Positions 1 to 14,497 of a DNA stretch of 25,337 nucleotides are shown here, piece by piece (position 1 is the first letter of the stretch; each line of letters opens with the position of its first letter). The notes below the pieces were generated by a model that worked only from the letters and a program-made list of their open reading frames with translations, was not told the DNA's origin and did no database searches. A program made the translations under genes and the position numbers. The stretch covers positions 1 through 25,337 of the IMG/VR virus record IMGVR_UViG_3300009104_000114, one strand, 5' to 3'. Source of the DNA: a virus.

Positions 1-22
1 TGAGGCGGGAGTCCCGTTTGAC

Positions 23-48
23 ATCCCAAACTTTCGAAAACCTGTGGT
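23..48. promoter_or_regulatory. Possible operator half-related to the 9681-9706 palindrome
   Basis: Positions 34-47 read TCGAAAACCTGTGG, which matches the right half of the much better palindrome at 9692-9705 (TCGAAAATCTGTGC) except at two positions. Around the TCGA centre this copy is only partly symmetric (8 of 13 pairs). A shared regulator binding both sites is inference from the similarity. Only two copies were found by eye. Confidence 0.3.
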
Positions 49-50
49 CC

Positions 51-121
51 GCCCCCTAGAGCGGGCACTAAAGCCAGAACGGCGGGCTGTTCCATTCTGG
101 CTTTAGGAGTACGCCCCCTAG
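51..121. repeat. Symmetric repeat structure upstream of integrase; candidate attachment or regulatory site
   Basis: A perfect 12-bp inverted repeat, CTAAAGCCAGAA at 68-79 and its complement at 95-106, surrounds a 15-nt loop. It is flanked on both sides by the direct repeat GCCCCCTAG (51-59 and 113-121), so the whole structure is nearly symmetric about position 86. Large serine integrases commonly recombine at an att site of about 50 bp next to their gene, and this is the only prominent structure between the window edge and int. A terminator is less likely because no T-run follows the hairpin. A protein operator is an equally open reading. Confidence 0.35.
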
Positions 122-151
122 GACGAGAGACCATTTCCAGTACCCCCAACC

Positions 152-176
152 GAACGGAGGCCTAGCCGCCTCCGAC
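152..176 (+). promoter_or_regulatory. ECF-type promoter P1 (integrase)
   Basis: GAAC at 152-155, a 14-nt spacer, then CTCCGAC at 170-176. This is one of six sites in the window with identical elements and spacing. The integrase ATG begins 11 nt after the last base of the -10 element, so the predicted transcript is leaderless or nearly so. Assignment as a promoter rests on recurrence, constant spacing and position; no transcription start is known. Confidence 0.7.
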
Positions 177-186
177 AGGGGGGAAC

Positions 187-1866
187 ATGGCAACGAAGGG
201 GAACACCACCCGGGCAGCGATCTACACCCGGAAGTCATCGCTGGACGAACGGTCCGGCGATAACCGCAGCACCACCGCCCAGGAGCGGGAGTGTCGGGCC
301 CTGGCCGAGCGCCTCGGGTTCGAGGTCGTCGAGGTCTACGCCGAGGCAATCGGCACCAGCGCCTCACACCTAACCAACGACGCCCGGCCCGAGTTCGCCC
401 GGGCCATGGCCGACATGGGCTCCCGGTTCGACGTCCTCGTCGCCTGGGCCCTCGACCGGGTCACCAGGAAGGGCATCGACGAGATGGCCGGCCTGTTCCG
501 CCGCATCGAGGAGACCGGGGGCCGGGTCGTAACGAACGACTTCGACAGCGCCGGCAGCGAGGCCCGCATCCTGGGCACGCTGGTCTCCGAGCTCAGCCGA
601 GGCGAGATGGCCAAGCTCTCGGAGCGGGTCCGCCGGGGCAAGTCCGAGCAGATGTTGAGGGGCGAGTACCAAGGCGGCAGCGTCCCCTACGGCTGGCAGG
701 CCGTCCGCCGTCCGAACGAGCCGACCATGCTCGAGCTGGACCCCGAGGCCGTTTTGGTCATCCGGGAGATGGTCGACCGGATCATCGGCGGCGCCACGCT
801 GGGCGAGGTCTGCACCTGGGCCAACGGTGCCGGACACCGAACCTCGAACGGGGCGCCCTGGTCGAAGTCGACCCTCGGCCGGTTCATCAAGTCGAAGCAC
901 CTCCTCGGCCACCTCCGGCAACTCGACGACGTCTACCGGGACGCCGAGGGCAACCCGGTCGAGGTGGTCGAACCGATCCTCACCGAGGGGCAGTTCGTCC
1001 GGGTGGCCAAGGTCCTAGCCAGCCGCCGCCGTGGCGGTGACGGTGGCACCGGACGGCCGAAGGTTCAGGACCGGCTGGCTATTGGCAAGACCATGCTCGC
1101 CGGACTGATCAAGTGCGGGGACTGCGGTCGCAACCTCTCGAGGTACTCGTACCAACGGCATAACAAGCCCTACACCTACTACCAGTGCCACGACTGCCTG
1201 ACCGGCAAGCCCTTCATGGTCCGGGGAGCCGAGGTCGACGCCTTGGTGGCCGGCGAGGCCCTGGGCTTCCTCGCCCGCCTCGAGCCCGAGTCGCCGATTG
1301 TCGACGAGGTCGCCCGCCGCTGGATGGCCCGGTACACGCCGGAACAGATGACCAAGCGCCAGGAGCTAGAGGACGAGGTCGAGGCCATCGAGGGCCGGCT
1401 CCGGAAACTCCGCAGCGACTACTACGACGCCGGCCGGATGTCCGACGACGAGTTCGACGAGCGGGAGGAGCGCCTCCAGGGCCGGGTCGATGAGCTACGG
1501 GCAGAGGTGGGCACCATGCCGGCGCCGACCGCTGACCTGTCGGCCATCCAGGCGCTCGTCGATTCCAACGACGACCCCGACGCCGACCCGACGGCCGAGG
1601 GTTCAGCCTGGGCCAACCTCGAAGACCACGATCGGCGGGACATCATCAAGCTCCTCGTCGACACCGTGACCATCGAGCGACGGGCCAAGGCCGGCGATGA
1701 CATCGAGACCGCCGAGAACGGTGGCCGGGTGTCGATCACGTTCGCCACGCCGTCCAACGTCGTTGAGCTAGGGGCCAGGACCGCCCGCCGCCGGACCTAT
1801 TCCACGGCGGTGAAGGTCGCTGGCTTTGAGGGGGCCAGCAGAGCGACTGTGGCCGCCACGGCCTGA
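187..1866 (+). CDS. int: Large serine recombinase / phage integrase
   Basis: Site-specific recombinase that would integrate the phage genome into the host chromosome and, with a directionality factor, excise it. The 559-residue length is typical of large serine integrases. The N-terminal resolvase domain (about residues 9-160) contains the catalytic motif YTRKS with the nucleophile predicted at Ser17. A recombinase domain follows, with the conserved GGSVPYGW stretch near residue 165. A zinc ribbon is formed by Cys310-x2-Cys313 and Cys334-x2-Cys337, followed by a charged coiled-coil segment at about residues 384-441. ATG 187 follows a G-rich run and lies close to promoter P1, which supports this start. 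The gp3-like protein at 3476 is the expected directionality partner. Annotation of family is secure; the attachment site is not proven. Confidence 0.97.
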   Translation: MATKGNTTRAAIYTRKSSLDERSGDNRSTTAQERECRALAERLGFEVVEVYAEAIGTSASHLTNDARPEFARAMADMGSRFDVLVAWALDRVTRKGIDEMAGLFRRIEETGGRVVTNDFDSAGSEARILGTLVSELSRGEMAKLSERVRRGKSEQMLRGEYQGGSVPYGWQAVRRPNEPTMLELDPEAVLVIREMVDRIIGGATLGEVCTWANGAGHRTSNGAPWSKSTLGRFIKSKHLLGHLRQLDDVYRDAEGNPVEVVEPILTEGQFVRVAKVLASRRRGGDGGTGRPKVQDRLAIGKTMLAGLIKCGDCGRNLSRYSYQRHNKPYTYYQCHDCLTGKPFMVRGAEVDALVAGEALGFLARLEPESPIVDEVARRWMARYTPEQMTKRQELEDEVEAIEGRLRKLRSDYYDAGRMSDDEFDEREERLQGRVDELRAEVGTMPAPTADLSAIQALVDSNDDPDADPTAEGSAWANLEDHDRRDIIKLLVDTVTIERRAKAGDDIETAENGGRVSITFATPSNVVELGARTARRRTYSTAVKVAGFEGASRATVAATA

Positions 1867-1879
1867 ACAGGAGGACACG

Positions 1880-2242
1880 ATGGACGACTCAACCTTCCGA
1901 CCGAACTCCCGGAACACCTGCCCGTACCCAGGCTGCGACATGCCGAAGGGCGACGGGTTCGCCGGCACCTGCTTCCGCCACGATGGCCGCGAGGACCTCG
2001 ACGTGGACCAGGTGCTGAGCTACGACCCCGACTCCGAGAGGCCGTACCAGCCGCCACGGCGAACGATCGAGGCCGGCGACGTTCTGACCTATGCCACCTA
2101 CGGCGGCAGCCACCGGCAGGTGGTCGTCACCCGGCACTACGACGACATCAAGTACGGGGAGCCCGGGTTCACCGGCGAGATGGCCAACGGCCACCAGGTC
2201 TGGGGCTACGACCGACAGGTGGTGCGCTGGCCCGGCGAGTAG
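1880..2242 (+). CDS. Small putative zinc-binding protein, unknown function
   Basis: A 120-residue protein not recognised as a named family. The N-terminus has Cys14-x4-Cys19-x11-Cys31-x2-His34, a plausible single zinc site. The C-terminal half (about residues 55-118) is rich in Thr, Val, Tyr and Gly with short alternating hydrophobics, suggesting a small beta-barrel such as an SH3-like fold; this is inference. ATG 1880 is preferred over an in-frame upstream start at 1826 because AGGAGG at 1869-1874 sits 5 nt before it and the upstream extension overlaps the integrase. It is the last gene of the integrase transcription unit, directly before the 2258-2293 terminator, so it may be a regulator or accessory factor of lysogeny. 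Confidence 0.8.
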   Translation: MDDSTFRPNSRNTCPYPGCDMPKGDGFAGTCFRHDGREDLDVDQVLSYDPDSERPYQPPRRTIEAGDVLTYATYGGSHRQVVVTRHYDDIKYGEPGFTGEMANGHQVWGYDRQVVRWPGE

Positions 2243-2250
2243 CTCGAACT

Positions 2251-2275
2251 GAACACCAGGGGCCGCACCTCCGAC
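2251..2275 (+). promoter_or_regulatory. ECF-type promoter P2, nested in a terminator
   Basis: GAAC at 2251-2254, 14 nt, CTCCGAC at 2269-2275. The -10 element lies across the end of the left arm and the loop of the terminator hairpin at 2258-2293. A transcript starting about 7 nt downstream would begin at the right arm and could not form the hairpin, so P2 transcription would escape the terminator that stops upstream RNA. A GTG starts 10 nt after the -10 element, but the SD-supported ATG is at 2354. Confidence 0.68.
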
Positions 2276-2293
2276 TGAGGGGGTGTGGCCCCT
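2258..2293 (+). terminator. Rho-independent terminator of the integrase unit
   Basis: AGGGGCCGCACC (2258-2269) pairs with GGTGTGGCCCCT (2282-2293), 12 bp with one G-U pair and a 12-nt loop. It is followed by the pyrimidine-rich tract CTTCCTTTCTTCT. It lies 15 nt after the stop of the 1880-2242 gene. Confidence 0.85.
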
Positions 2294-2353
2294 CTTCCTT
2301 TCTTCTACAAGGGGCCCGACCTATCGCCGACCGACCCTCGCTGGAGGTCCCCC

Positions 2354-2527
2354 ATGTTCCCCAAGTTCCACCTCGTCCACCCCGCCCGCCTGTTCGCCCT
2401 CATTGAGGCCGTCATCGCCGCCGTCGCTGCGTTCCTACCGATGAGCGGGCCCCAGGTGGCGGCCCTGTGCGCCGTCGCCGCCGTCATCACCGGCGAGGGC
2501 GTCAAGCGTCGAGTCCCTGCGGGGTAG
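2354..2527 (+). CDS. Small membrane protein, possibly holin-like
   Basis: A 57-residue protein with two hydrophobic stretches, about residues 13-29 and 33-47, separated by a short MSGPQ turn, and a basic C-terminus (VKRRV). This is the layout of small phage membrane proteins, some annotated as holins; no endolysin is present here to support a lysis role, so function is unassigned. ATG 2354 is chosen because GGAGG lies 6 nt upstream. An alternative start at GTG 2285 would give an 80-residue form and sits at the same short distance from P2 as the starts after P1, P4 and P6. The gene has its own promoter and is closed by the 2563-2602 terminator, making it a self-contained cassette. Confidence 0.65.
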   Translation: MFPKFHLVHPARLFALIEAVIAAVAAFLPMSGPQVAALCAVAAVITGEGVKRRVPAG

Positions 2528-2562
2528 GCCCCGGGCGCCTGGCCCGAATCAACCAGCTCACG

Positions 2563-2602
2563 AGAAGGCCCGCCCCTCACCTCCCCTGGGGGCGGGCCTT
2601 CT
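2563..2602 (+). terminator. Strong Rho-independent terminator
   Basis: A perfect 14-bp stem: AGAAGGCCCGCCCC (2563-2576) with its exact complement at 2589-2602, a 12-nt loop, and the T-rich tail TCTTGG after the right arm. It closes the membrane-protein cassette and immediately precedes promoter P3. Confidence 0.9.
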
Positions 2603-2615
2603 TCTCTTGGTGGCC

Positions 2616-2640
2616 GAACGCCGACGCCTCGTTCTCCGAC
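2616..2640 (+). promoter_or_regulatory. ECF-type promoter P3 (exonuclease/RDF operon)
   Basis: GAAC at 2616-2619, 14 nt, CTCCGAC at 2634-2640, beginning 13 nt after the right arm of the 2563-2602 terminator. The first gene downstream starts at ATG 2671 with its own GAGGAG Shine-Dalgarno, so this transcript would have a short leader. Confidence 0.72.
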
Positions 2641-2670
2641 TGGGGAAGGCGTACAGCGTGAGGAGCCCAG

Positions 2671-3489
2671 ATGACCCAGCCCAAAGTGAAGACCATCAGC
2701 CGTGGCCAAGGAGCGGCACGAGGCCGGTGGTACGTCGACCAGGCCACCGGCGACAAGTTGCCCAGCGTCACGTCGATCACCGGCCAACTGCCGAAGCCGG
2801 CGATCGCTTTCTGGCGCGGCAAGGAGGTGGCCAAGGCCGCCGTCGAGGACTTCGGCACCCTGGCCGACTTCATCACGAAGGGGAAGCCGGACGCCGCGAT
2901 CGACCACTTGAAGAGGGCGCCGGACCGCAGCAGCGGTAAGGCCGCCGAGCTGGGGAGCATCATCCACGACCTCGTCGACCGCCATAACAAGGGGGAGACC
3001 CTCGAGCGGGTTCATCCCGACCACCGGCCGTTCGTCGACCAGTACGAGCGGTACATCCGGGAGTTCAGCCCGGGCGTCATCGAGTCCGAGGTAACGGTCT
3101 GGAGCGACACGCATGGGTACGCCGGCACCTTGGACCAGGTCGCCATGTTCGACGACGAGGCCGTCATCATCGACGTGAAGACCGGCGCCAGCGGTGTCTG
3201 GCCAGACACGGCGCTGCAGCTGGCGGCGTACGCCCGGGCCGACTGCATCATCGACGCCGAAGGCGAGCGCCGGCCCATGCCTCAGATCGACGGCGCTGCA
3301 GTGCTGTGGCTCCGGCCGGACAAGTTCGAGCTCGTCCCGGTGCGGGCCCTGGACGACGACGTGTTCGAGGTGTTCCTCGCCCTGCAAAAGATCTCCTCGT
3401 GGTCCTACGAGGTGAGCAAAACGGTCCTCGGACCGCCACTGAAACCAGAAACAAGCACAGACAAGGAGGCCGCAGATGGCCCTCAGTAA
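2671..3489 (+). CDS. PD-(D/E)XK exonuclease, RecB/Cas4-like
   Basis: A 272-residue nuclease of the phage recombination exonuclease type, expected to resect double-stranded ends during replication or recombination. The core motifs are in order: His99 in ELGSIIHDL, Asp155 in GTLD, the Asp168-x-Lys170 pair in IIDVKTG, and QLAAYA about 15 residues later, the usual Q-x3-Y tail motif of RecB-family nucleases. The N-terminal part (GDKLPSVTSIT, AFWRGKE) resembles the region found in phage members of this family. The last 14 nt overlap the next gene, which implies coupled expression. There is no annealing protein of recognisable type beside it, so pairing with a recombinase is not shown. Confidence 0.85.
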   Translation: MTQPKVKTISRGQGAARGRWYVDQATGDKLPSVTSITGQLPKPAIAFWRGKEVAKAAVEDFGTLADFITKGKPDAAIDHLKRAPDRSSGKAAELGSIIHDLVDRHNKGETLERVHPDHRPFVDQYERYIREFSPGVIESEVTVWSDTHGYAGTLDQVAMFDDEAVIIDVKTGASGVWPDTALQLAAYARADCIIDAEGERRPMPQIDGAAVLWLRPDKFELVPVRALDDDVFEVFLALQKISSWSYEVSKTVLGPPLKPETSTDKEAADGPQ

Positions 3490-4120
3490 GGCAATCTTCG
3501 ACACCGCCCCGAGCTTCGGGCAGACCGACATCGTCGGGCGGTTCAGGTCCGGGACCCAGGACGGTGGTCGCCCCATCGCCCTGTCCGCCTGGCGGGTGAC
3601 GACGGGTGATCCCGAACTCGCCGCCCAGGTGGCCAAGGCCTACGGCGGTACGCCGGCGCCATGGGACACCCGCACCGAGGAATCCCTCGAGGTCTACACC
3701 GACGCCTCGGAGGTGGCGGTGATCTTCGAGGACATCTTCGGTGAGATGACCCTGTGGGGTCGCAACAAGCCGATCCGTAGCTGTGACGGCGTGGTCCAGA
3801 ACGACGACGGCCAGACGCCCTGCGCCTGCCCGGCCGACTTCAGCGAACGGAAGGCCAAGGCCCGGGAGGGCAGCGCCTGTCAGCCGAACATCCGGGTGCG
3901 GTTCCGCCTGGCCGACATGCCCGACGCCGGCCTGTGGCGGTTCACCTCGTCCAGTTGGCAGCTGGCCCAGGAGATCCCCGACCTGGTCGAGGACCTCAAG
4001 GCGGCCGGCAGCGGTGAAGGCACCCTGTCGCTGAAGCTCATCGAGTGGGAAACCAAGGCCGGCGAGGCCCGCAAGTTCACCAAGCCGGTCCTGAAGCTTC
4101 ACGCCCCGGCCGCCGCCTAA
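3476..4120 (+). CDS. Recombination directionality factor-like protein (phiC31 gp3-like)
   Basis: A 214-residue protein resembling the gp3 family, whose phiC31 member binds the serine integrase and switches it from integration to excision. Supporting features are the LSAWRVTTGDPELAAQVAKA segment (residues 36-55), the YGG-x4-W motif, RSCDG at 101-105, and four cysteines (103, 116, 118, 135) likely to hold zinc, then the LWRFTSSSW strand. Many members sit among replication genes, as here, rather than beside int. ATG 3476 has AGGAGG upstream and overlaps the exonuclease end. Family recognition is from memory of conserved motifs; some members may have a replication role rather than, or as well as, an RDF role. 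Confidence 0.72.
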   Translation: MALSKAIFDTAPSFGQTDIVGRFRSGTQDGGRPIALSAWRVTTGDPELAAQVAKAYGGTPAPWDTRTEESLEVYTDASEVAVIFEDIFGEMTLWGRNKPIRSCDGVVQNDDGQTPCACPADFSERKAKAREGSACQPNIRVRFRLADMPDAGLWRFTSSSWQLAQEIPDLVEDLKAAGSGEGTLSLKLIEWETKAGEARKFTKPVLKLHAPAAA

Positions 4121-4455
4121 TGGCCAACCCGTCGAAGGCCCGAGGCACCCGGTTCGAGGTGGCCTGCGCCGACTACCTGAGGTCGGCCGGCTTCCCGGAC
4201 TGCTTCCGAATGGCCGACGGCGGTGAACACGACGCCGGCGATCTGGGGGGGCTGCCCCAGGTCGCCGCCGAGTGTCGAGATCGGGCCCGCCTGGACCTGG
4301 CCGGCAACGTGGCCGACGCCAACCGCCGAGCCATTGAGAAGGGCGTGCCCTTCGGCGTGACGATCATGAAGAAGCGAGGCGCCCCGATCGCCGACGCCTA
4401 CGTGGCGTGCGACCTGGAAACGTTCGCCCGCCTCCTCCATGCGCTGAACAACTAG
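4120..4455 (+). CDS. Holliday junction resolvase-like PD-(D/E)XK nuclease
   Basis: A 111-residue protein of the size and pattern of phage Holliday junction resolvases that process branched DNA. Conserved positions visible are Arg11-Phe-Glu13, Gly40-Asp41 in GDLGGLP, and Glu51 in AECR, followed by ALVVAVK-like strand residues (VTIMKKRG). The expected E-x-K catalytic lysine is an arginine here (Glu51-Cys52-Arg53), which could reduce activity or be a tolerated variant. ATG 4120 overlaps the preceding stop by one base (TAATG), so translation is coupled; an upstream in-frame start at 4045 would lie inside the RDF gene and is disfavoured. Promoter P4 starts inside its last codons. Confidence 0.68.
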   Translation: MANPSKARGTRFEVACADYLRSAGFPDCFRMADGGEHDAGDLGGLPQVAAECRDRARLDLAGNVADANRRAIEKGVPFGVTIMKKRGAPIADAYVACDLETFARLLHALNN

Positions 4456-4470
4456 CGACGGATCTCCGAC
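4446..4470 (+). promoter_or_regulatory. ECF-type promoter P4 (primase-polymerase operon)
   Basis: GAAC at 4446-4449 lies inside the end of the resolvase gene; after 14 nt comes CTCCGAC at 4464-4470. The GTG start of the primase-helicase begins 10 nt after the -10 element, predicting a leaderless or near-leaderless mRNA. Confidence 0.7.
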
Positions 4471-4479
4471 GGGGTAGGG

Positions 4480-6999
4480 GTGACGACACTTCAAGACATC
4501 CTCGACCGGGTCGGCGACGTCACTGAGAAGGACGGCACCTACGTCGGCGTCTGCCCTTGTCACGATGACCGCCGGCCCAGCCTGGCCCTGACCCTCCAGG
4601 CCGGCGGCAAGTTGCTCGTCTATTGCCGGGCCGGCTGCCACACCACCGAGGTGGTGCGGGCCCTGGGCCTGAGGATGAGCGACCTGTTCGGTGTCGAAGC
4701 CGGCGACGGCGTCGTCGTCGCAAGCTCTGGCCCTGCGGCACCTCCCACCGCCGACATGATCGCCGAGCTCGAGGACTACGTGACCGAAGCCAACGGCCTC
4801 TACCGGGGGAGCCCGGCGGCGGCCTACGCCTTGGAGCGGTTCGGTCTCACCGAGGACATGGGGTACTGGTTCCGCCTCGGCTACGACGACGGCAGCCTGG
4901 ACATGACCTGGGTGACGCCGGAGTTCCACGCCGTTCCCCGGCTGGTGGTCCCCTTTGTCGGCTTCGACTCGGTCGTCAGGGCGGTCCAGGGGCGAGCCCT
5001 GGTCGAGCACCGCACCCGCTGGTGTGGCCTCCGTAACCCGCCCGGCCACAGTTGGGCCACGCTGGGGACGTTCCTGCTCGACGGGGACGACCACAACATC
5101 TGCGTGGCCGAAGGCCCGGGCGACGCCCTGACCTCTCTGGCGGCCGGCACCTCATCGGTGCTGATCCGAGGCGCCGCCCTGAGCCGCAACTCGTCCACCC
5201 TGGACACGCTGATAGCCGGCACCGAGGGCCGCCGGGTCGTCCTGGCCGGCGACGCTGACCCCAGCGGCGTCGACTTCAACATCAGCCTCGGTGCGGCGTT
5301 GGCCGATGCCGGCGCCCAGGTCCACACGCTCCAGTTGGGTGCCGGCGGGGACCTCACAGAGTGGCGTGAGAGCGCCACACAGACGTTCAGGGACGAGTTC
5401 CAACGTGCCCTGCGGTCAGCGCCCCGCATCGACGCCAACGCCCTACCGCCGGCCATTACGGGCCAGGACGGCGACGAGCTAGAGGCCGACCTGCCGGAGC
5501 AGTTCCGCCGCACCGACGAGGGCAACGCCCGCCGCCTGGTCGCCATCACCGGCGGCATGGCCCGGTGGTGCCCGGCGCTGGGCTGGCTCATCTACGACCG
5601 GGGCGCCTGGCAGATCGACGACACCCGCATGATCGAACGGGCCATGGCAGCGATGTGCGAGAACATGCTGGCCCAGGCCACGGACATGATCGCTGCCGGT
5701 GAGCTTGTCGATGACGACGAGCTCGTCGCCTACGGCCAGTCCCTCATGAGTTGGGCCCTCCGGTCCGAGAACACGCCGAGGTTTGAGGCAGCCATCAAGC
5801 GGGCCCAGCCGATGGTGGCCGTCGGCTTCGACCTGCTCGATGCGAACGACCACCTATTGCCGGTGGCCAACGGGACCATCGACCTCCGGACGTCGGAGCT
5901 ACGGCCGCACGACCCGGCCGACTTCATGACGTTCCGGGTGGATGTCGAGTACCACCCCGACGCCGAGTGTCCGAAGTTCAAGGCGTTCCTGTTGCAGGCC
6001 ATGAATGGCGCCAGCGAGATGGTCGAGTTCCTACGCCGCACGATCGGCTACGGCCTGACCGGCTCAACCGCTGAGCAGTCGTTCGCCGTTTTCCACGGCG
6101 GCGGTGCGAACGGTAAGTCCGTCCTGACATCGACGCTGTCCAAGGTGTTCGAGGCCATCACCGCCGTGGCCAGCTTCGCCACGTTCGAGCTAAAGCCGGC
6201 GGGGTCATCGACGGCGGACTTGGCTGCGCTTCGCAACAAGCGCCTGGTCCTGTCCCAGGAGGGCGAGGCCGGCCGGGCGATGGCCGAGTCCGTTCTGAAG
6301 CGCTGCACCGGCGGGGACAAACTCACCGCCCGGATGCTTTACCGGGACGCCATGAGTTTCTGGCCCAAGTTCCTGCTCATTCTCTCAACGAACCACCGGC
6401 CGACCGTCCGGGGCCAGGACCCGGGCTTCTGGCGGCGGGTCCTGTATTGCCCGTTCGACCGGTTCGTCCCGCCGGACGAACGGGACCCGCAGCTCGTCGA
6501 GAAACTGCTCATCGAGGCAGAGGGCATCCTGGCCTTCTTCGTCGAGGGGGCACGGCAGTGGTACGAGGCCGGCGGACTGAACCCGCCCGCCCAGGTCCGA
6601 GAGGGCACCGCTCACTACCAGCAGACATCCGACGAACTCGGCGGCTTCGTCGGCTGGGTCGTCGTCGCTGATCCGTCAGCCCGCATCCTGGGCCGGGAGG
6701 TCTACGAGGAATACAGGTCGTGGGCGATTGCCGAAGGTGTGCCCCCGTGGTCGGCGAGGGCGCTGAACGAGGGCCTGTGCGAACGCCTGGCCGGCGTGGT
6801 CAAACGCAAGCGCCGCGAGGGTGTCTGGCTGGACGGTCTCCGCCTGGCCACCGACGACGATCGCATCGGTGACGAACGTGGCGGTGACGACCCCCCTTCT
6901 GAAACTTCCCCTAAGGGCTCCGATTCTGACTCACATGAGAAAGTCTCAGAGCGGGGGTCTACATCACCACAACCGTCACCGACCGAGGGCACCGAATGA
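4480..6999 (+). CDS. DNA primase-helicase fusion (CHC2 zinc finger, Toprim, D5/SF3 helicase)
   Basis: An 839-residue replication protein that combines primer synthesis and DNA unwinding. The N-terminal zinc site has Cys25, His28, Cys49 and Cys53. The Toprim core has Glu211 in VAEGPGD and Asp258/Asp260 in AGDADPSG. A D5_N-type linker (about residues 440-525) precedes the SF3 ATPase with Walker A GGGANGKS (Lys546), an acidic Walker B at about Glu594 in LSQEGEAG, and the LSTN...FWRR sensor/arginine segment near residues 640-665. The last 50 residues are acidic and Ser/Pro-rich, probably disordered. GTG 4480 is the start supported by frame and by P4; no good Shine-Dalgarno with normal spacing is present. 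It overlaps the polymerase start by ATGA. Confidence 0.93.
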   Translation: MTTLQDILDRVGDVTEKDGTYVGVCPCHDDRRPSLALTLQAGGKLLVYCRAGCHTTEVVRALGLRMSDLFGVEAGDGVVVASSGPAAPPTADMIAELEDYVTEANGLYRGSPAAAYALERFGLTEDMGYWFRLGYDDGSLDMTWVTPEFHAVPRLVVPFVGFDSVVRAVQGRALVEHRTRWCGLRNPPGHSWATLGTFLLDGDDHNICVAEGPGDALTSLAAGTSSVLIRGAALSRNSSTLDTLIAGTEGRRVVLAGDADPSGVDFNISLGAALADAGAQVHTLQLGAGGDLTEWRESATQTFRDEFQRALRSAPRIDANALPPAITGQDGDELEADLPEQFRRTDEGNARRLVAITGGMARWCPALGWLIYDRGAWQIDDTRMIERAMAAMCENMLAQATDMIAAGELVDDDELVAYGQSLMSWALRSENTPRFEAAIKRAQPMVAVGFDLLDANDHLLPVANGTIDLRTSELRPHDPADFMTFRVDVEYHPDAECPKFKAFLLQAMNGASEMVEFLRRTIGYGLTGSTAEQSFAVFHGGGANGKSVLTSTLSKVFEAITAVASFATFELKPAGSSTADLAALRNKRLVLSQEGEAGRAMAESVLKRCTGGDKLTARMLYRDAMSFWPKFLLILSTNHRPTVRGQDPGFWRRVLYCPFDRFVPPDERDPQLVEKLLIEAEGILAFFVEGARQWYEAGGLNPPAQVREGTAHYQQTSDELGGFVGWVVVADPSARILGREVYEEYRSWAIAEGVPPWSARALNEGLCERLAGVVKRKRREGVWLDGLRLATDDDRIGDERGGDDPPSETSPKGSDSDSHEKVSERGSTSPQPSPTEGTE

Positions 7000-8795
7000 G
7001 CCGCACCGCTGGCTTACGACCACCGATCGACGGGGCGATGGTGTACCCGGTCAGAACCGACGATGACGTCGCTGCGGCAATCGGCTGGCTCACCACCTGC
7101 CCGGGGATCGTCGCCGTCGACACCGAGACCGCCGGCGTCGGCTATCACGACGAGACCCGGCTGCTGCAGTTCGGCGACGCTCACATCGCCTGGGTCGTCG
7201 ACCCGCACCGCTACCCGGCGCTGCTGGAGATGCTGCTGTTCACCGAGGCGCCCCTCGTGTTCCACAACGGCGCCTTCGACGCCCTCCACCTGGGGCGCCT
7301 GGTCGACCCGGGCAACGTCGCCGACCACGCCGACCGAATCCTGGAGCGGGCGTCCGACACGCAGTTGCTCGGCCACCTCGTCGACCCGAGGGAGAAGGTC
7401 GACGGGGGACTGGGCACCAGCCTCAAGGGGCTGGCGGAGGCGCACGTCGATGCGGCGGCACCGGATGGCCAGAAAGCTCTGAAGCAACGCTTCGCCGAAC
7501 TGGGTCTGCGAGGCGCCGACGCCTGGGCCAACATCCCGGTGACCGACCCCACCTACCTGGTGTACGCCGGCGTGGACACTTTGCTCACGGCCAGGCTGTA
7601 CCCGATCCTGAAGGCCAAGGTCGACGAACTGAACCTGGGCCACCTCGCTGAGCTAGAGCATCGGGTCCAGCGGATCTGTACCCGCATGACGGCCGCCGGC
7701 ATCGAGGTCGACGCCGACTACGCCCGGGACCTGAGCGAAGATCTCGACCAGGAGCGACGGGCCGCTGAACGTCAGGCCGCCATGTTCGGCGTGGCCTCCA
7801 TCGGTTCACCCGCCCAGGTCGCCGAGGCGCTCAAGGTCCGAGGCGCCACCCTCACCGAGACCACCCCGACCGGGCAGGTCAAAGTCGACCGGACGGTGCT
7901 GGAGGGTCTCGACGATGACCTGGCCCGGGCGGTCCTCGCCGGAAAGGCCGCCGCCAAGGCCCGGACCACCTGGGTTGAGCCGATCATCGCCGCCGCCGAG
8001 GTCGACGGTCACCTCCATGCCCGCATTAGGACCCTCGCCGCCAGGACGGGCCGCAGCTCCATCACCGACCCGCCGCTGCAGCAGCTACCCGCTAACGACC
8101 ACCGCATCCGGTCGTGCCTCCTGGCCGGCGAGGGTCACACCTGGGCCAGCGTCGACTTCTCCAACATCGAGCTGCGGTGCCTGGCGGTCCTGTCCAGCGA
8201 GGAAGCGATGACCGCAGCGTTCCAGGCCGGCCAGGACCTCCACTCCACGATGGCGCAGCAGGTGTTCGGCGAAGTCACCCCCGAGACCAGGCGCCGCCAG
8301 AAGGGCCTGAGCTTCGGCGTCTGCTACGGCGGCGGAGTCCAGACCCTCGCCCGACAGACCGGGATCTCCGAGACCGAGGCCCGGGTGGCCATGGACCGCT
8401 TCGACCGATCGTTCCCTCGGATCAAGCGCTGGTCGTCGCAGCTCGTCGAGCGGGTGAAGTTCGGCGAGGGCGTCGTCATCACGCCGACAGGCCGGCGGGT
8501 GCCGGTCTCACGGGACCGGGCCTACCGGGCGATCTCGTACACGATCCAGGGGCTAGCGAGCGACATCTTCAAAGGCGCGCTGGTCGAGCTCGACGATGCC
8601 GGCCTGGGCGACTACATCCGCCTGCCGATCCATGACGAGGTGCTGTGCCGGCTCCCGCTGGGCCAGGAGGACGAGATAGCGGCGGCCATCGCCGAGACCA
8701 TGGCCGGCGAGCTGGGCAGTGTTCCGATCACGACCGACGCAGAAATCATTGGGCAGCGCTGGGGAGACAAGTACCGGACCGAGGTGTCCCCATGA
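6996..8795 (+). CDS. polA-like: Family A DNA polymerase with 3'-5' exonuclease
   Basis: A 599-residue phage DNA polymerase, lacking the 5'-3' exonuclease domain of bacterial Pol I. Exonuclease motifs are intact: Asp42-x-Glu44 in DTET, Asn91 to Asp95 in HNGAFD, and Tyr190-x3-Asp194. Polymerase motif A is DFSNIELR with Asp387, motif B is RQKGLSFGVCYG (Lys436, Phe440), and motif C is His546-Asp547-Glu548. Both catalytic centres therefore look functional. The start ATG overlaps the primase-helicase stop by 4 nt, so the two replication proteins are translationally coupled; ATG 7038 is a less favoured alternative. The HNH gene follows with the same ATGA overlap. Confidence 0.96.
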   Translation: MSRTAGLRPPIDGAMVYPVRTDDDVAAAIGWLTTCPGIVAVDTETAGVGYHDETRLLQFGDAHIAWVVDPHRYPALLEMLLFTEAPLVFHNGAFDALHLGRLVDPGNVADHADRILERASDTQLLGHLVDPREKVDGGLGTSLKGLAEAHVDAAAPDGQKALKQRFAELGLRGADAWANIPVTDPTYLVYAGVDTLLTARLYPILKAKVDELNLGHLAELEHRVQRICTRMTAAGIEVDADYARDLSEDLDQERRAAERQAAMFGVASIGSPAQVAEALKVRGATLTETTPTGQVKVDRTVLEGLDDDLARAVLAGKAAAKARTTWVEPIIAAAEVDGHLHARIRTLAARTGRSSITDPPLQQLPANDHRIRSCLLAGEGHTWASVDFSNIELRCLAVLSSEEAMTAAFQAGQDLHSTMAQQVFGEVTPETRRRQKGLSFGVCYGGGVQTLARQTGISETEARVAMDRFDRSFPRIKRWSSQLVERVKFGEGVVITPTGRRVPVSRDRAYRAISYTIQGLASDIFKGALVELDDAGLGDYIRLPIHDEVLCRLPLGQEDEIAAAIAETMAGELGSVPITTDAEIIGQRWGDKYRTEVSP

Positions 8796-9334
8796 CGATC
8801 ACTCCGCCCTCCGAGGTCCCGTTGGCCATCCGGCTCTGGGCCCGGGTCCAGCCCTTCGACGTCCGGGACAGTTCGGCCTGCGCCGACTTCATGGGCCACC
8901 GGACCCCGGCCGGCTACGGGACGCTGCATGACCCGGAGACCGGCCAGACGCTGTACGCCCACCGAGCGATGTGGTCCGAGGTCCACAAGCGGGAGATCCC
9001 TGAGGGTCACGTGATCCATCACACCTGCGCCAGGCCGTCCTGCGTACGCCCGGGGCATCTCGAATGTGTCAGCACCGCCGAGCATGGACCGATGGCGGCC
9101 CACAGTGGCCGGGCCCGGGTCCTACCGCCGCTGAACGACGCCGACGCCCTGGCCATCCGGGTGATGTACGACACCGGCAGGTGGTCGCAGGGCGACATCA
9201 GCAGGCTCTTCTTCGATGGCTCGGGTGCCGGCCAGCCGGCGGTGCAGCGAATCGTCACGGGCCAGACGTACAAGAAGGCCGGTGGTCCGATCGTCACCCG
9301 AGGGCGAGGCACCCGCCCGAAGCGGCGCCGGTAA
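8792..9334 (+). CDS. HNH endonuclease, homing-type
   Basis: A 180-residue protein with an HNH_3-type core: His76-His77-x-Cys79, Cys84, and His89-Leu90 within the pattern HHTCARPSCVRPGHL. Residues about 115-165 (DALAIRVMYDTGRWSQGDIS) resemble a small helix-turn-helix used for DNA recognition, as in free-standing phage homing endonucleases. The basic tail RGTRPKRRR also suggests DNA binding. It is overlapped with the polymerase stop (ATGA) and with the next gene (TAATG), so it is embedded in the replication operon rather than being an obvious insertion. An upstream in-frame start at 8645 lies in the polymerase gene and is rejected. Confidence 0.85.
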   Translation: MTITPPSEVPLAIRLWARVQPFDVRDSSACADFMGHRTPAGYGTLHDPETGQTLYAHRAMWSEVHKREIPEGHVIHHTCARPSCVRPGHLECVSTAEHGPMAAHSGRARVLPPLNDADALAIRVMYDTGRWSQGDISRLFFDGSGAGQPAVQRIVTGQTYKKAGGPIVTRGRGTRPKRRR

Positions 9335-9633
9335 TGAAGTCCGCCGACCGTCTGCTGTTTCATCAGCTCGAGGACCTGGAGGCCACCATCACCCACCTCC
9401 GGCGGGTGTTCCCCGAGGCCATCAGGTCCGCCGAGGACGCTATGCCGAGGCCCCCGACCGGGGTGCCGGTCCGCAGTTCGACGATCAGCGACCCGACCGC
9501 CAGCCTGGCGCTCGACCCACGTCGGCGTGCCCGGGCCCACAACGTGAAGATGGCCCGCCGGCGGGTCAAGGGGGCCCTGGTGGCGCTCAGGGAGGCTCTA
9601 GCGCACGCCGCGCTGGCCGCCGACAGGGGCTGA
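9334..9633 (+). CDS. Small helical protein, unknown function
   Basis: A 99-residue protein that I do not recognise with certainty. It is mainly predicted helix, with a leucine-spaced N-terminal helix (residues 4-30) and a basic C-terminal helix from about residue 68 (RRRARAHNVK), separated by a Pro/Ser/Thr-rich linker. No cysteines, signal peptide or membrane segment are seen. It starts by TAATG overlap with the HNH gene and ends the replication operon, 171 nt before the sigma-like gene. A role as a replication accessory or DNA-binding protein is only a guess from context. Confidence 0.72.
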   Translation: MKSADRLLFHQLEDLEATITHLRRVFPEAIRSAEDAMPRPPTGVPVRSSTISDPTASLALDPRRRARAHNVKMARRRVKGALVALREALAHAALAADRG

Positions 9634-9680
9634 TTGCCCCGTCACCTTCCGGGGGACGAATAACCGCCCCGGGATGCGTA

Positions 9681-9706
9681 GGCACACATTCTCGAAAATC
9701 TGTGCC
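9681..9706. promoter_or_regulatory. 26-bp palindromic operator-like site
   Basis: Left arm GGCACA and right arm TGTGCC flank a core centred on TCGA; 11 of 13 base pairs are symmetric, with mismatches only at the 9687/9700 and 9691/9696 pairs. It lies about 100 nt upstream of the sigma-like gene. The length and symmetry suit a dimeric repressor or activator. The right half recurs at 34-47 upstream of the integrase. No T-run follows it, so a terminator is unlikely. Confidence 0.55.
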
Positions 9707-9752
9707 TGAGATCCGCGAAGGGCACGCGCCGCCGCGCGTAGACTCATGTTTG

Positions 9753-9770
9753 CCGGGTGGGCTGACCCGG
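9753..9770 (+). other. Leader hairpin upstream of the sigma-like gene
   Basis: CCGGGT (9753-9758) pairs with ACCCGG (9765-9770) across a GGGCTG loop. A possible -10 hexamer TAGACT at 9739-9744 lies just before it, but no convincing -35 is seen. The rest of the 9634-9804 gap holds the operator-like site and nothing else I can support. Confidence 0.3.
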
Positions 9771-9804
9771 TGACCAGATCAGCGATTCGCAAAGGCGACA
9801 CCGA

Positions 9805-10560
9805 ATGACTTTCACCGACGACAACCCCTCAGCCCTCGACGGCGTCTTCATGGATTACCCGGACCGTGAGACCGAGCGCTACTGCCAGTCCCAGGCCAGG
9901 CGCCGAGCCCGGCAGAAGGGCCTGAACCGGGAGGACGAGCGAGCACTCTCCAACGCCATCCTCGGCGTGGTCATGGCCTGTCAGGCCGAGACACCCGCCG
10001 GGCCCGACTACCGGAAGCGGTGGCAAGGCCTGTGTAAGACGAGGCTCCGGCGCCTACGGGACGTCCTGCCCGAGATCATCACCCGGCCCGGCTACAACCT
10101 CACGGCCTGGGACGACCGGCAGATCACCGGCGCTCACGCCGCCGCCGCTGCTGAGCTAGAAGGCCAGGCCGTCCGGCCCGATGAGATCAAAGACCGGGCC
10201 AAGGTCATCTACACCCTTGGCGGCGGGTCGGCATCGGTGTTCGAGATGGCCAACGGTCAGATGGTGTGGCTCGAGGCCAACGAAGTCGAGTCGCCGGGGG
10301 TAAAGACGTGGGCCGACGTTGCCGACCGCCTCGTCGACGTCGAGGACCAGGCCATCCGGAACACCAGCAGCGAACGGGCGGACCTGGACCTCGCCACCAG
10401 CGGACTGACCGACCGTCAGAAGCTGGTCGCCGAGTTCCTCAAGAGAGGCGACACCCAGGCCGAGATCGCCCAGCGCCTGCGGCGCTCCAAGTCGACGATC
10501 AGCGCCGAGGTGGCAGCGATCAAGGCGTGGCTGACCGGCCAGGGGGTCGAGTCGTCGTGA
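9805..10560 (+). CDS. Sigma-factor-like transcription regulator
   Basis: A 251-residue protein with a clear C-terminal region-4-type helix-turn-helix at about residues 201-243: LTDRQKLVAEFLKRG, then TQAEIAQRL, then SKSTIS. The N-terminal part (about residues 40-90) contains DERALSNAILGVVMAC and RKRWQGLCKTRLRRLRDVL, which is reminiscent of sigma region 2. The middle (about 100-195) is longer than the linker of a minimal ECF sigma. I call it sigma-like rather than a proven sigma; an ArpU/RinA-type activator is an alternative. ATG 9805 has only a weak AAAGG upstream. Its control region has the 26-bp palindrome but none of the GAAC-N14-CTCCGAC sites, which is what is expected if it acts above that regulon. 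Confidence 0.6.
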   Translation: MTFTDDNPSALDGVFMDYPDRETERYCQSQARRRARQKGLNREDERALSNAILGVVMACQAETPAGPDYRKRWQGLCKTRLRRLRDVLPEIITRPGYNLTAWDDRQITGAHAAAAAELEGQAVRPDEIKDRAKVIYTLGGGSASVFEMANGQMVWLEANEVESPGVKTWADVADRLVDVEDQAIRNTSSERADLDLATSGLTDRQKLVAEFLKRGDTQAEIAQRLRRSKSTISAEVAAIKAWLTGQGVESS

Positions 10561-10580
10561 ATGAACAAGGGGAGGACACC

Positions 10581-11726
10581 ATGACCAAGGAGACCACCGG
10601 CGAGTTCCAAGCGCCGGAGTCCGCCACCATCGACCCGGACGGCTGGGAGGTGCGCCACAGGCACAACCCGTTCGCCGATCCGAAGATCAAGATGACCCGG
10701 GGCGTCCGGCAGCTGCTCAACCTGATCGACGCCGCCGGCCCCAACGGGCTCCTCATGGTCGGCGATGCGAACCTGGGCCGGGTCCTGGCCTGGCATCTCC
10801 AGAGGTCCCAGGAGATCCCGATGGGCAAGGAGTCCCGGTGGCGGACCATCGGCCGCACCGCCCGCACCCTGTCGGAGCGGGGATTCATCGAGATCAACTG
10901 CACCAAGACCGACGACACCCTCGGACGAGGTGAGAAGGCCGGCACCGCTTGGTGGCTCACCCTCAAGCCGCTGGGCCGGAAAGTCCTCGTGTCCACTCCC
11001 GCCGAGACCATCCCGAACCCTGGCCGGCAGGCATGGACGTTCACCACGGGAACTCTGCACGGCGCAGCGATAAGGGCCCACGAGCTACGTCCCGAGGGGT
11101 ACGGCCTCGCCGAGACCACGTACGACGGCCTCACCTCCTGGCCCGATGAGCAGGTGACCATGCAGATGAATCGGGCACCATCGGACCGCGAACAGACCAT
11201 CGTGATGCGGCTAGGAACCGCCATCGACGGTGCGGGACCGCTGAGCGATTACTACGACCGCTGGCTGGGTGGGAAGAAGCCGACCCGCGACCGGGCCCAG
11301 AAGGAGGTGGCCTACCTGGCGGCCTTCGTCGTTGAGAGCCGGATGACACCTGACCCCAAGAAGGTCCAGGACGTGTCGGCGGCGCTCATGTTCCTGTCCG
11401 AGGCCGACCTACTGGCCACCCGCCGCTGGCTATTCGACCTCGGTGGCCCCGAACTCCAGGCGACGATGACCGACCGAATGATGACCGACCCTGGCGGCCT
11501 GAAGCCGTGGCAGTGGGTCTCGGGCACCCTCGATGAGATGTGGGCCACCTGCTGGAAGGGCAACGCCCACGGCCCGGACCGACGGTGGGCGCTGCGTCAG
11601 ATCCGCCGGCTAGCCGTCGCCGCCGTCCAGGCATCGCTCGACCTGGACCACGACCTGGTGGTCTACGCCGCCACGGGCAGCGAGATGGCTGAAAAGACCA
11701 GGGAGCGGGAAGCCCGCGAGACCTAG
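10581..11726 (+). CDS. Winged-helix DNA-binding protein, unknown role
   Basis: A 381-residue protein of no certain family. Residues about 38-135 look like a winged helix-turn-helix: a helix at GVRQLLNLID, a recognition-type helix at RTARTLSERGFIEI, and a wing ending in AWWLTLKPLGRKV. The larger C-terminal part is helical, with no catalytic motif seen. Such an arrangement is common in phage replication initiators and in regulators; either is possible here. ATG 10581 is chosen because GGGGAGG lies 5 nt upstream; GTG 10557, overlapping the sigma-like stop (GTGA), would add eight residues in frame. It is co-transcribed with the sigma-like gene and followed by a strong hairpin. Confidence 0.72.
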   Translation: MTKETTGEFQAPESATIDPDGWEVRHRHNPFADPKIKMTRGVRQLLNLIDAAGPNGLLMVGDANLGRVLAWHLQRSQEIPMGKESRWRTIGRTARTLSERGFIEINCTKTDDTLGRGEKAGTAWWLTLKPLGRKVLVSTPAETIPNPGRQAWTFTTGTLHGAAIRAHELRPEGYGLAETTYDGLTSWPDEQVTMQMNRAPSDREQTIVMRLGTAIDGAGPLSDYYDRWLGGKKPTRDRAQKEVAYLAAFVVESRMTPDPKKVQDVSAALMFLSEADLLATRRWLFDLGGPELQATMTDRMMTDPGGLKPWQWVSGTLDEMWATCWKGNAHGPDRRWALRQIRRLAVAAVQASLDLDHDLVVYAATGSEMAEKTREREARET

Positions 11727-11728
11727 GA

Positions 11729-11768
11729 AGGTCGGCCGGGACGGGCAGCCCTCCGTCCTGGCCGATCT
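11729..11768 (+). terminator. Rho-independent terminator of the regulatory operon
   Basis: A 16-bp stem pairs 11729-11744 with 11753-11768, with two G-U pairs and an 8-nt loop (GCAGCCCT). The following sequence, CCTTATTG, has only a short T-rich tract. It begins 3 nt after the stop codon of the winged-helix gene and directly precedes promoter P5. Confidence 0.75.
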
Positions 11769-11775
11769 CCTTATT

Positions 11776-11800
11776 GAACTCGAAACGGCCAACCTCCGAC
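11776..11800 (+). promoter_or_regulatory. ECF-type promoter P5 (HNH gene)
   Basis: GAAC at 11776-11779, 14 nt, CTCCGAC at 11794-11800, starting 8 nt after the 11729-11768 terminator stem. The HNH start at 11890 is about 80 nt downstream, giving the longest leader of the six predicted transcripts. Confidence 0.72.
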
Positions 11801-11889
11801 TGAGACCTACGTACTTCAGCCCGGTCGAGTGCGGCGTCAGCTGGCCCATGTCGGAGCGGCCCGCTCGACCTCCTCGTGAAGGGGAACTC

Positions 11890-12264
11890 ATGGCTCTATC
11901 GAAGCCCTGCATCATCTGCGAACGCATCACCAGGCCAGGCCTCACCAGGTGCGACACCTGCAACCGAAAGGCCCGCCGCATCTGGGACGCCGGGGCGGTC
12001 GCTAACCGACGAGCCCGACTGCGCGAAGGGGGAGGGGGGTCAGCCCGCCTACGCCGCGCCCTGAACACCCGGAGGTCCGGAACCTGCGCCCGGTGTGGCA
12101 TCGACTACTCGAGCGACTTCCTGAAGGTCGACCACGTCCAGCCGCTCTCGCTCGGGGGCGGGGACGATCCCGAGAACTTGCAGGTGTTGTGCGACCCCTG
12201 CCACCGGGCCAAGTCGGAGCGTGAAACCCGGGAGCGTGCCGCCATCGCCCGGAATGACCGGTAA
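11890..12264 (+). CDS. HNH endonuclease, McrA-like
   Basis: A 124-residue protein with two zinc sites. The N-terminal knuckle is Cys7-x2-Cys10 with Cys21-x2-Cys24. The HNH core has Cys66-x2-Cys69, Asp81-His82 in KVDHVQPLSLGGG, Asn96, and Cys101-x2-Cys104-His105. Phage HNH proteins of this kind often lie near the terminase genes, and several are needed for efficient packaging cleavage, but here two methyltransferases intervene before terS. ATG 11890 follows GAAGGGG and is preferred over ATG 11848, which has no Shine-Dalgarno. It stands alone between promoter P5 and a T-run terminator, so it is a second one-gene cassette. Confidence 0.88.
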   Translation: MALSKPCIICERITRPGLTRCDTCNRKARRIWDAGAVANRRARLREGGGGSARLRRALNTRRSGTCARCGIDYSSDFLKVDHVQPLSLGGGDDPENLQVLCDPCHRAKSERETRERAAIARNDR

Positions 12265-12337
12265 AGGCCCCTCCTGGGGCGGGGCCGGCCGAAAGTTCCC
12301 AGACCGGCCGGTTCCTAGGCGGGCGACTGGGCACCAC

Positions 12338-12366
12338 AAACGCGATCCGGGTCGCTTTCGTTTTTT
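12338..12366 (+). terminator. Probable terminator of the HNH gene
   Basis: AAA-(C)-GCGA pairs with TCGC-TTT around a TCCGGG loop, with one bulged C, and is followed by CG and a run of six T residues (12361-12366), the longest T-run in the window's non-coding DNA. The stem is weak, so termination efficiency is uncertain. Confidence 0.55.
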
Positions 12367-12383
12367 GACCTGAACTGGTTTGG

Positions 12384-12427
12384 CCACCGGTTCCCGAACC
12401 CCGCCCCGGTTCCCGAACCCCCGGTGG
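12384..12427. repeat. Tandem palindromic repeats, operator- or iteron-like
   Basis: CCGGTTCCCGAACCCC occurs twice, at 12387-12402 and 12406-12421, 19 bp apart. Each copy contains GGTTC-CC-GAACC, a dyad with 5-bp arms. The pair is enclosed by a longer inverted repeat, CCACCGG at 12384-12390 and CCGGTGG at 12421-12427. The element is thus both directly repeated and symmetric overall. Its binding protein is unknown. Confidence 0.7.
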
Positions 12428-12448
12428 TCCAGACTCTCAAGGCCTGGC

Positions 12449-12501
12449 CTGCGAAGCCACCGGGGGCTCAACCCCCACGCAGAACGACCCCCCGAAGGGG
12501 G
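12449..12501 (+). other. Nested RNA hairpins
   Basis: CTGCG (12449-12453) pairs with CGCAG (12478-12482), enclosing a hairpin GGGGG-CTCAA-CCCCC (12462-12476). A further hairpin CCCCC-GAA-GGGGG occupies 12489-12501. The T-arm-like look of the first hairpin does not extend to a full tRNA. It may belong to a structured RNA or act as a transcription barrier; this is unproven. Confidence 0.4.
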
Positions 12502-12668
12502 CCGCTCGAGGTACCGGGGCCGGCCGATCCGAGGATGGGTGTCGCTCCTGCGATGGGCTGCCCCGGCAACCGGAACCTACCGGCGAACCGCCAGCGACTC
12601 GTGTCGTCCAAGTCATCCGTGATCCAGATGCCTGTCCGCCCTGGTCACCTGTTGTCCAGATCAACTCT

Positions 12669-12693
12669 GGACGCCGGGCGCCTCGCCTCCGAC
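12669..12693 (+). promoter_or_regulatory. ECF-type promoter P6 (methyltransferases)
   Basis: GGAC at 12669-12672 (the only one of six with GGAC instead of GAAC), 14 nt, then CTCCGAC at 12687-12693. The -35 element lies in the right arm of the hairpin at 12654-12672. The methyltransferase ATG begins 11 nt after the -10 element, the same distance as at P1. Confidence 0.65.
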
Positions 12694-12703
12694 TGGAAGA
12701 GCC

Positions 12704-13441
12704 ATGGCGCCCGAGCCGATCTACGAGACCGACCGAGCGACCCTCTACTGCGCCGACGCCCTCGACGTGCTGCCAGCCATCCCGGCCAGCGCCGTCGACC
12801 TCCTGGTAACCGACCCGCCCTACGGGGTGGAGTTCCGATCCAACATGAGGAAGGCCACGCCCAGGTTCGATGCCATCGCCGGCGACGACTCGACCGACGT
12901 CGGTGAGCTAGTCGTTGCAGCGTCGCTGCGCTGCCTACGGAAGCACCGGCACCTCTACGTGTTCGGCCCGTTCGAGGACGCCCTCGTCGCCATGGCCGGC
13001 GTGACCCGTCCGGTCGGCCTGATCTGGGACAAGGGCAAACTCGGGATGGGGGACCTCACCCTGCCCTACGGGCCGAGCTGGGAGCCCATCTTCTTCGCCA
13101 CCTTGTCGCCTAGTCCCAAGGGCAACGGCCTCGGCGAGCCGGGGCGCCTGGCCGCCAGCCTTCGCCGGGGATCGGTGCTGCGGTACAACCGCCGCTGCGC
13201 CACGAAGTACCGGCACCCCACCGAGAAGCCCGTCGAGCTACTGCGGGCGCTCATCGAGTGTTCCTCACTACCAGGCGAGACCGTCCTGGACCCGTTCGCC
13301 GGGTCCGGGTCGACCCTGGTCGCCGCCGTCCTGGCCGGCCGCCGAGCCATCGGCGTCGAACTCAACGAGGAGTACGCCGACCTGTCTGCCGAGCGCCTCG
13401 CCGCAGCGGAGACCCTCGCCGATCAACTCGACGGGGCGTGA
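12704..13441 (+). CDS. Beta-class DNA methyltransferase (N4-cytosine or N6-adenine)
   Basis: A 245-residue S-adenosylmethionine-dependent methyltransferase that would modify phage DNA, typically to evade host restriction. The catalytic motif DPPY is at residues 37-40 and the cofactor motif DPFAGSGS begins at Asp196; this order (catalytic before cofactor) is that of beta-class enzymes. HPTEKP, a family signature, lies between them. No partner restriction endonuclease gene is recognisable, so it is probably an orphan enzyme. The target sequence cannot be read from the protein. The stop overlaps the start of the second methyltransferase (GTGA), so the pair is co-expressed from P6. Confidence 0.93.
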   Translation: MAPEPIYETDRATLYCADALDVLPAIPASAVDLLVTDPPYGVEFRSNMRKATPRFDAIAGDDSTDVGELVVAASLRCLRKHRHLYVFGPFEDALVAMAGVTRPVGLIWDKGKLGMGDLTLPYGPSWEPIFFATLSPSPKGNGLGEPGRLAASLRRGSVLRYNRRCATKYRHPTEKPVELLRALIECSSLPGETVLDPFAGSGSTLVAAVLAGRRAIGVELNEEYADLSAERLAAAETLADQLDGA

Positions 13442-14496: not shown

Positions 14497-14497
14497 C

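Follow-up and report, generated by a model that had tools for sequence, protein, structure and literature searches.

Six copies of a bipartite GAAC-N14-CTCCGAC element mark a probable phage-specific regulon in a distant relative of phiC31

Introduction

The closest described counterparts of the promoter-like element considered here are the repeated promoters of the actinophages phiC31 and TG1 (Lomovskayavirus, Tigunavirus), each built on one conserved block that is present in ten forward copies in phiC31 (GTTGCCGACTCCCTT) and nine in TG1 (GTCGCCGACTCCCTT), with no reverse copy in either genome. The phage-specific promoter set of phiC31 was reportedly described experimentally by Ingham et al. 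in 1993. The element under study, GAAC-N14-CTCCGAC (N14 denoting 14 nucleotides of any kind), is found in a 25,337-nt stretch of viral DNA (IMG/VR virus record IMGVR_UViG_3300009104_000114, positions 1 to 25,337), which was analyzed over its whole length and is hereafter called the window.

Other repeated or unusual promoter-proximal elements are also relevant. Mycobacteriophages of cluster K carry the start-associated sequence (SAS), a repeated asymmetric element located just upstream of many start codons. Promoters of extracytoplasmic function (ECF) sigma factors include those read by Bacillus subtilis SigX and Streptomyces SigE, and phages may encode sigma factors of their own, such as the middle and late sigma factors of SPO1 and gp55 of T4. 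Phage-encoded sigma factors resembling those of Bacillus sporulation have also been described (PMC9429907).

This study compared the six sites of the window with the promoter sets of phiC31 and TG1 and with those that could be recognized in related phages and prophages. The six sites probably act as the promoters of a single phage-specific regulon, in a temperate phage of the phiC31-like type, and are most likely read through a phage-encoded sigma factor. The regulon agrees with the original prediction, which had proposed such a regulon from the window alone, and the proposal gained support from the asymmetry, common direction, fixed bipartite spacing and gene-start position of the sites, and from their positional counterparts in relatives.

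Results

Six sites at gene starts

GRAC-N14-CTCCGAC (R, A or G) occurs six times in exact form in the window, five times with GAAC and once with GGAC, always on the + strand, against 0.15 copies expected (standard deviation 0.41, maximum 2; 100 dinucleotide shuffles). The coordinates and the 14-nt spacer of the original prediction were thus exact, and C or T precedes GAAC or GGAC in 6/6 sites, as it had stated. GRAC stands exactly 14 nt before six of the seven forward CTCCGAC words and before none of the four reverse-strand copies. Among alternative spacers, 8-13, 15-18 and 20 nt gave no occurrence and 19 nt gave one, which is a second GAAC at the site at 2251. Five sites read AAC-N17-CGAC and the sixth GAC-N17-CGAC.

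Five of the six sites are wholly non-coding and the sixth (site 4) overlaps the final 10 nt of the gene upstream, although non-coding DNA makes up just 5.7% of the window, a share that rests on our own gene list, in which a few gene starts are approximate. The chance of such placement by position alone is about 2e-8. All sites do lie at gene starts (Table 1), as had been claimed, with the starts of two genes corrected to ATG 2354 and ATG 11890 (leaders of 78 and 89 nt). All six sites fall within the first 12.7 kb, and the structural genes in the window are therefore probably not direct members of the regulon. Exact copy number alone is no proof for this dyad, as another one, CGAG-N18-GCCGGCG, has five exact copies in the window, located inside genes; GAAC-N14-CTCCGAC is set apart by its intergenic position and by its counterparts in relatives.

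Two features of secondary structure were noted near the first sites. A 15-bp terminator-like hairpin with a pyrimidine-rich tail (2258-2293) overlaps site 2 across its -10, and an inverted repeat upstream of the integrase gene (68-106; CTAAAGCCAGAACGG / CCATTCTGGCTTTAG, 15 nt, 93% complementary, 9-nt loop) may be a terminator or an attachment-site feature.

Counterpart promoter sets in relatives

The exact motif does not occur in phiC31, TG1 or the related loci L267, L283 and L004, and scanning viral contigs for YGAAC-N14-CTCCGACTGRG (Y, C or T) returned 53 contigs with one match each, at about chance level, and no set. In L267, a syntenic Acidimicrobiales prophage with the same early gene order as the window, a search made without a prior motif identified GCAAC-N15-GACATG as the most over-represented dyad, with five forward copies and no reverse copy. 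These precede the integrase gene, a kinase gene and the exonuclease, primase and second HNH (HNH2) genes, and four of the five genes are those under window sites 1, 3, 4 and 5. The distances from the -10 to the start codon are also similar (window/L267: integrase 10/8, exonuclease 30/32, primase 9/8, HNH2 89/95 nt), and one L267 site falls within the terminal 31 nt of the gene before it, like the -35 of window site 4. In the genome of the L267 host, the prophage contig of 14.7 kb has five copies of the dyad and the other 2.9 Mb have four.

Further sets were found in L283 (primase 53%), in which CAA-N16-GACAT precedes the integrase, kinase and exonuclease genes, and in the more distant phage L111 (primase 38%), in which GAAC-N16/17-CGCATAGG occurs at six places, four of them before the kinase, exonuclease, gp3 and primase genes. 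AAC-N17 before a core of CGAC, CATG or CGCA is common to the window, L267 and five of the six L111 sites. No convincing set emerged when L268, L269, L270, L146 and others were searched for anchored dyads, and the AAC-N17 type therefore does not hold generally.

Repeated palindromes, about one type per phage, were observed separately in the phiC31-like loci L075-L140 (TACTCACGTGAGTA, TAGGAACGTTCCTA, TACTCAATTGAGTA, TCCCAAATTTGGGA and others) and are probably a diverging set of repressor operators.

Candidate sigma factors

The window, the relatives with promoter sets, phiC31 and TG1 all have a confirmed or candidate sigma factor gene downstream of that for DNA polymerase. In phiC31 it encodes gp12, just downstream of the polymerase gene; this protein carries a sigma factor annotation and has a match to Sigma70_r2. 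Homologs of gp12 are encoded at the corresponding position in dozens of related contigs, and 25 of 34 match Sigma70_r2 and five Sigma70_r4. The L111 protein is a clear sigma factor: most of its length is matched by SigB/F/G and RpoD models (E 6e-10) and not by an ECF subfamily, and it looks like a region-3-containing type.

In the window this place is taken by P0001, whose top NCBIfam match is the general sigma70/ECF model TIGR02937 (E 1.8e-5, below the curated cut-off), with a stretch of about 100 amino acids between the two halves of the protein. Its Pfam match to Sigma70_r4 (E 0.017) is likewise below the cut-off, and other helix-turn-helix (HTH) families score higher. The HTH is predicted with confidence (predicted local distance difference test about 90), and three helices at residues 21-93 with moderate confidence. 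The best Foldseek match of this low-confidence model is Mycobacterium tuberculosis SigL, an ECF sigma factor (E 0.056); structural matches with a root-mean-square deviation (rmsd) of about 20 Å were disregarded. The gene is preceded by a 171-nt gap (9634-9804) holding an imperfect palindrome, which may be an operator or a terminator.

The L267 protein at the place of gp12, P0004, yielded a low-confidence model; all 50 listed structural matches, which cover residues ~17-104, are to chains of sigma factors, with Z scores of up to 5.9 and an rmsd of about 3 Å. L283 has a P0004 homolog at the same place (31%, E 8e-20), its contig ending inside this putative sigma factor gene. No P0001 homolog is present in L267 or L283, which also lack its promoter. 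The joint occurrence of P0001 and the CTCCGAC motif in these few genomes is consistent with a pairing, and it does not amount to proof of one.

The phage and its relatives

The window is a linear record with a GC content of 67%. Its early genes encode, in order, a large serine integrase, small proteins, an exonuclease, a gp3-like protein, a RusA-like protein, a primase, a DNA polymerase, an HNH protein and a small protein, followed by the sigma factor candidate, a 378-amino-acid protein, an HNH protein, two methyltransferases, the small terminase, a ribonucleotide reductase and the large terminase, and then by protease, capsid, portal and neck/tail genes. The early order is that of phiC31-like phages, although in the window the structural genes come after the early region. 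Identities to phiC31/TG1 (large terminase 49%, portal 43%, primase 38-40%, polymerase 38%, exonuclease 35%, gp3 38%), at 35-50% throughout, make the phage a distant relative of Streptomyces phiC31; it is temperate, and the window holds a fragment of it.

The nearest relative in bacterial genomes is a prophage that appears to be divided between two contigs from one Acidimicrobiales metagenome-assembled genome (MAG), with a terminase at 73% and a primase at 51%, and this closeness suggests a host within the Acidimicrobiia. The relatives came from alignment queries and not from single-sequence queries: single-sequence protein scans of viral contigs (primase, terminase, P0001) and genome contigs (integrase) found none. 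A nucleotide search of the window against phage records gave no match, and a primase search across 395 genomes of the host class revealed no further close prophage.

Several side observations concern the relatives. L159 and L267, which come from the same Acidimicrobiales MAG, look like the two halves of a single prophage. The ribonucleotide reductase gene of the window (14977-16908), between the small and large terminase genes, is also present in L004 and L160, and no such match was found in L159; L160, which carries an actinophage-like terminase together with the reductase, is filed under a Gammaproteobacteria MAG, probably through a binning error. A complete tRNA-Lys(CTT) gene lies directly before the integrase gene in L267 (68-141) and L283 (44-118), probably as the attachment site; the window has no such gene.

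Table 1. Sites and genes of the window discussed in the text, with counterparts of the sites in relatives (positions in relatives in brackets).
Feature	Position	Strand	Description
Site 1	152..176	+	GAAC-N14-CTCCGAC, 10 nt before integrase ATG 187; integrase counterparts in L267 (179), L283 (163)
Large serine integrase	187..1866	+	phrog_95, E 2e-83
Site 2	2251..2275	+	78-nt leader to ATG 2354 (small-protein orf 2354-2527); start set by L267 homology
Site 3	2616..2640	+	30 nt before exonuclease ATG 2671; exonuclease counterparts in L267 (4380, 32-nt leader), L283 (4493), L111 (3707)
Exonuclease (phiC31 gp1-like)	2671..3489	+	phrog_298, E 5e-49; 35% to phiC31 gp1
phiC31 gp3-like protein	3476..4120	+	38% to phiC31 gp3, the recombination directionality factor of that phage
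Site 4	4446..4470	+	9 nt before primase GTG 4480; -35 overlaps end of rusA-like gene; primase counterparts in L267 (6202, 8-nt leader), L111 (6691)
DNA primase/helicase	4480..6999	+	phrog_6088, E 6e-194
DNA polymerase (phiC31 gp11-like)	6996..8795	+	phrog_17, E 9e-122
Imperfect palindrome	9680..9707	+	AGGCACACATTCTCGAAAATCTGTGCCT; in gap before sigma factor candidate
P0001, candidate phage sigma factor	9805..10560	+	251 amino acids, C-terminal sigma-4/HTH; same place as phiC31 gp12 and L267 P0004
Site 5	11776..11800	+	89 nt before HNH gene ATG 11890 (start by L267 homology); HNH2 counterpart in L267 (13890, ~95-nt leader)
HNH endonuclease under site 5	11890..12264	+	Pfam HNH, E 4e-13
Site 6 (GGAC variant)	12669..12693	+	10 nt before DNA methyltransferase ATG 12704
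DNA methyltransferase under site 6	12704..13441	+	phrog_67, E 2e-60

Discussion

We propose that YGAAC serves as the -35 and CTCCGAC as the -10 of these promoters, with AAC and CGAC 17 nt apart, and that host RNA polymerase core carrying a phage sigma factor would recognize both elements and start transcription a few bases downstream. The best candidate for this factor is P0001, encoded where phiC31 has its sigma-like gp12. Such a regulon would drive genes for integration, replication and DNA modification. The start codons of the integrase, primase and methyltransferase genes lie 9-10 nt after CGAC, from which we infer leaderless or near-leaderless mRNAs, a type common in actinobacteria. The hairpin around site 2 may also end the integrase transcript, and the gap with its palindrome upstream of the P0001 gene may hold a separate promoter, which would solve the start-up problem.

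Several observations weigh against this proposal. The exact CTCCGAC set is carried by one genome only, and P0001 has no detectable homolog in the collections searched. Its sub-cut-off sigma factor match comes mostly from the C-terminal HTH, and the N-terminal half searched alone gave no match. P0004 of L267 has no library match, its likeness to sigma domain 2 coming solely from a low-confidence model, and comparison of the gp12-family profile with P0001 and P0004 was not significant.

In the alternative that survives best, the promoters are read by an alternative sigma factor of the actinobacterial host, such as an ECF sigma factor, as a stress or lysogeny cue. The AAC-N17-CGAC layout resembles that of ECF promoters and the evidence for P0001 as a sigma factor is weak, both of which would fit this explanation. 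However, relatives presumed to share the host class have other -10 elements at the same genes, and the concentration of the L267 dyad in the prophage over the rest of one host genome is not what a host regulon would predict. We therefore regard a host factor as unlikely, if the least unlikely of the alternatives.

A slightly smaller probability is given to the possibility that the sites bind a phage activator or repressor and overlap promoters, comparable to phiC31 CIR operators or mycobacteriophage SAS, in which case CTCCGAC would be no -10. P0001 could be an HTH activator instead of a sigma factor, repeated operators at promoters do occur in phiC31-like phages, and GACATGTC of L267 is palindromic in four of five sites; nevertheless, the L283 variant is not palindromic, and the sites themselves are asymmetric, always co-directional with their genes and fixed in bipartite spacing. 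Their short, fixed distance to the start codon also leaves little space for a separate downstream promoter, and no sigma-70-type promoter was found in positions 1-14500.

Much less probable is an RNA element, in which CTCC(GAC)NGRGG would form a small hairpin acting as a terminator, a ribosome-site control or a processing site. The hairpin at site 2 reaches -34 kcal/mol and CTCC-GGGG pairing is possible at sites 1, 3 and 4, but the upstream GAAC lies at a fixed distance outside these stems, sites 5 and 6 form no stable local hairpin (-2.3 and -2.9 kcal/mol) and the L283, L267 and L111 counterparts have none of this form, so this explanation was rejected for lack of conserved stems. Chance or coding bias in an over-represented dyad picked post hoc has a negligible probability, since the comparable CGAG-N18-GCCGGCG dyad lies inside genes while the six sites all lie at gene starts and have positional counterparts in relatives.

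With the sites taken as promoters read by a phage sigma factor, the comparison of relatives suggests that the individual viruses each supply a sigma factor of their own together with promoters to match. Four putative pairings were seen: CTCCGAC with P0001, GACAT(G) with P0004-type proteins, CGCATAGG with the L111 sigma factor and the one-block TTGCCGACT with gp12. It is quite possible, though we would not call it probable, that the sigma-promoter pairs of phiC31-like actinophages are interchangeable and differ from one another, and that the sigma factor gene beside the DNA polymerase gene has been replaced or has diverged and the promoter set at the same genes has changed along with it, the AAC -35 and the N17 spacing being kept.

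Compared with known systems, the kind of promoter set described here, phage-specific and in an actinophage, has a precedent in phiC31, and the original prediction erred in assuming that no such regulon had been described, as phiC31 and TG1 both have their own repeated promoter. Like the window, these phages have near-identical forward promoters at early genes (exonuclease, gp3, primase, polymerase), the same genome type and a sigma-like gp12 encoded beside the DNA polymerase; in contrast, their promoters consist of one conserved block (phiC31 CCGGGTTGCCGACTCCCTTAC; TG1 GTCGCCGACTCCCTT) about 50 nt upstream of genes and are not bipartite. Neither block belongs to the window's sequence, in which the phiC31 early-promoter block GGTTGCCGACTYCCTT has a single chance-level match, with three mismatches. 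SAS is likewise repeated, asymmetric and located just upstream of start codons; its sequence GGGATAGGAGCCC is not enriched in the window (two matches at two mismatches versus 1.2 expected). ECF promoters share an AAC-containing -35 about 17 nt from a short CG-rich -10, so the layout noted in the original prediction stands, whereas its label "ECF-type" is unproven and premature until the sigma factor reading these sites is demonstrated: the window set is phage-borne, its -10 changes between related phages, and the L111 sigma factor matches SigB/F/G and RpoD models. Other phage-encoded sigma factors, as is proposed here, direct the RNA polymerase of the host to phage promoters whose sequences are unusual, but they belong to other families with other promoters, whereas the putative factor of the window is so diverged that its homology is marginal, and it appears to have been exchanged between relatives at a fixed place.

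To judge from the sequences compared, what is new is the GAAC-N14-CTCCGAC type itself and the finding that relatives keep the member genes and the spacing and differ in the -10 sequence and the sigma factor candidate. If our reading is true, these phages form a natural series in which the promoter specificity of a regulon changed while its member genes were kept, making sigma-promoter co-evolution directly testable; it would also give a hint of what the annotated sigma-like gp12 of phiC31 does, and could provide sigma-promoter pairs that are possibly orthogonal in actinobacteria.

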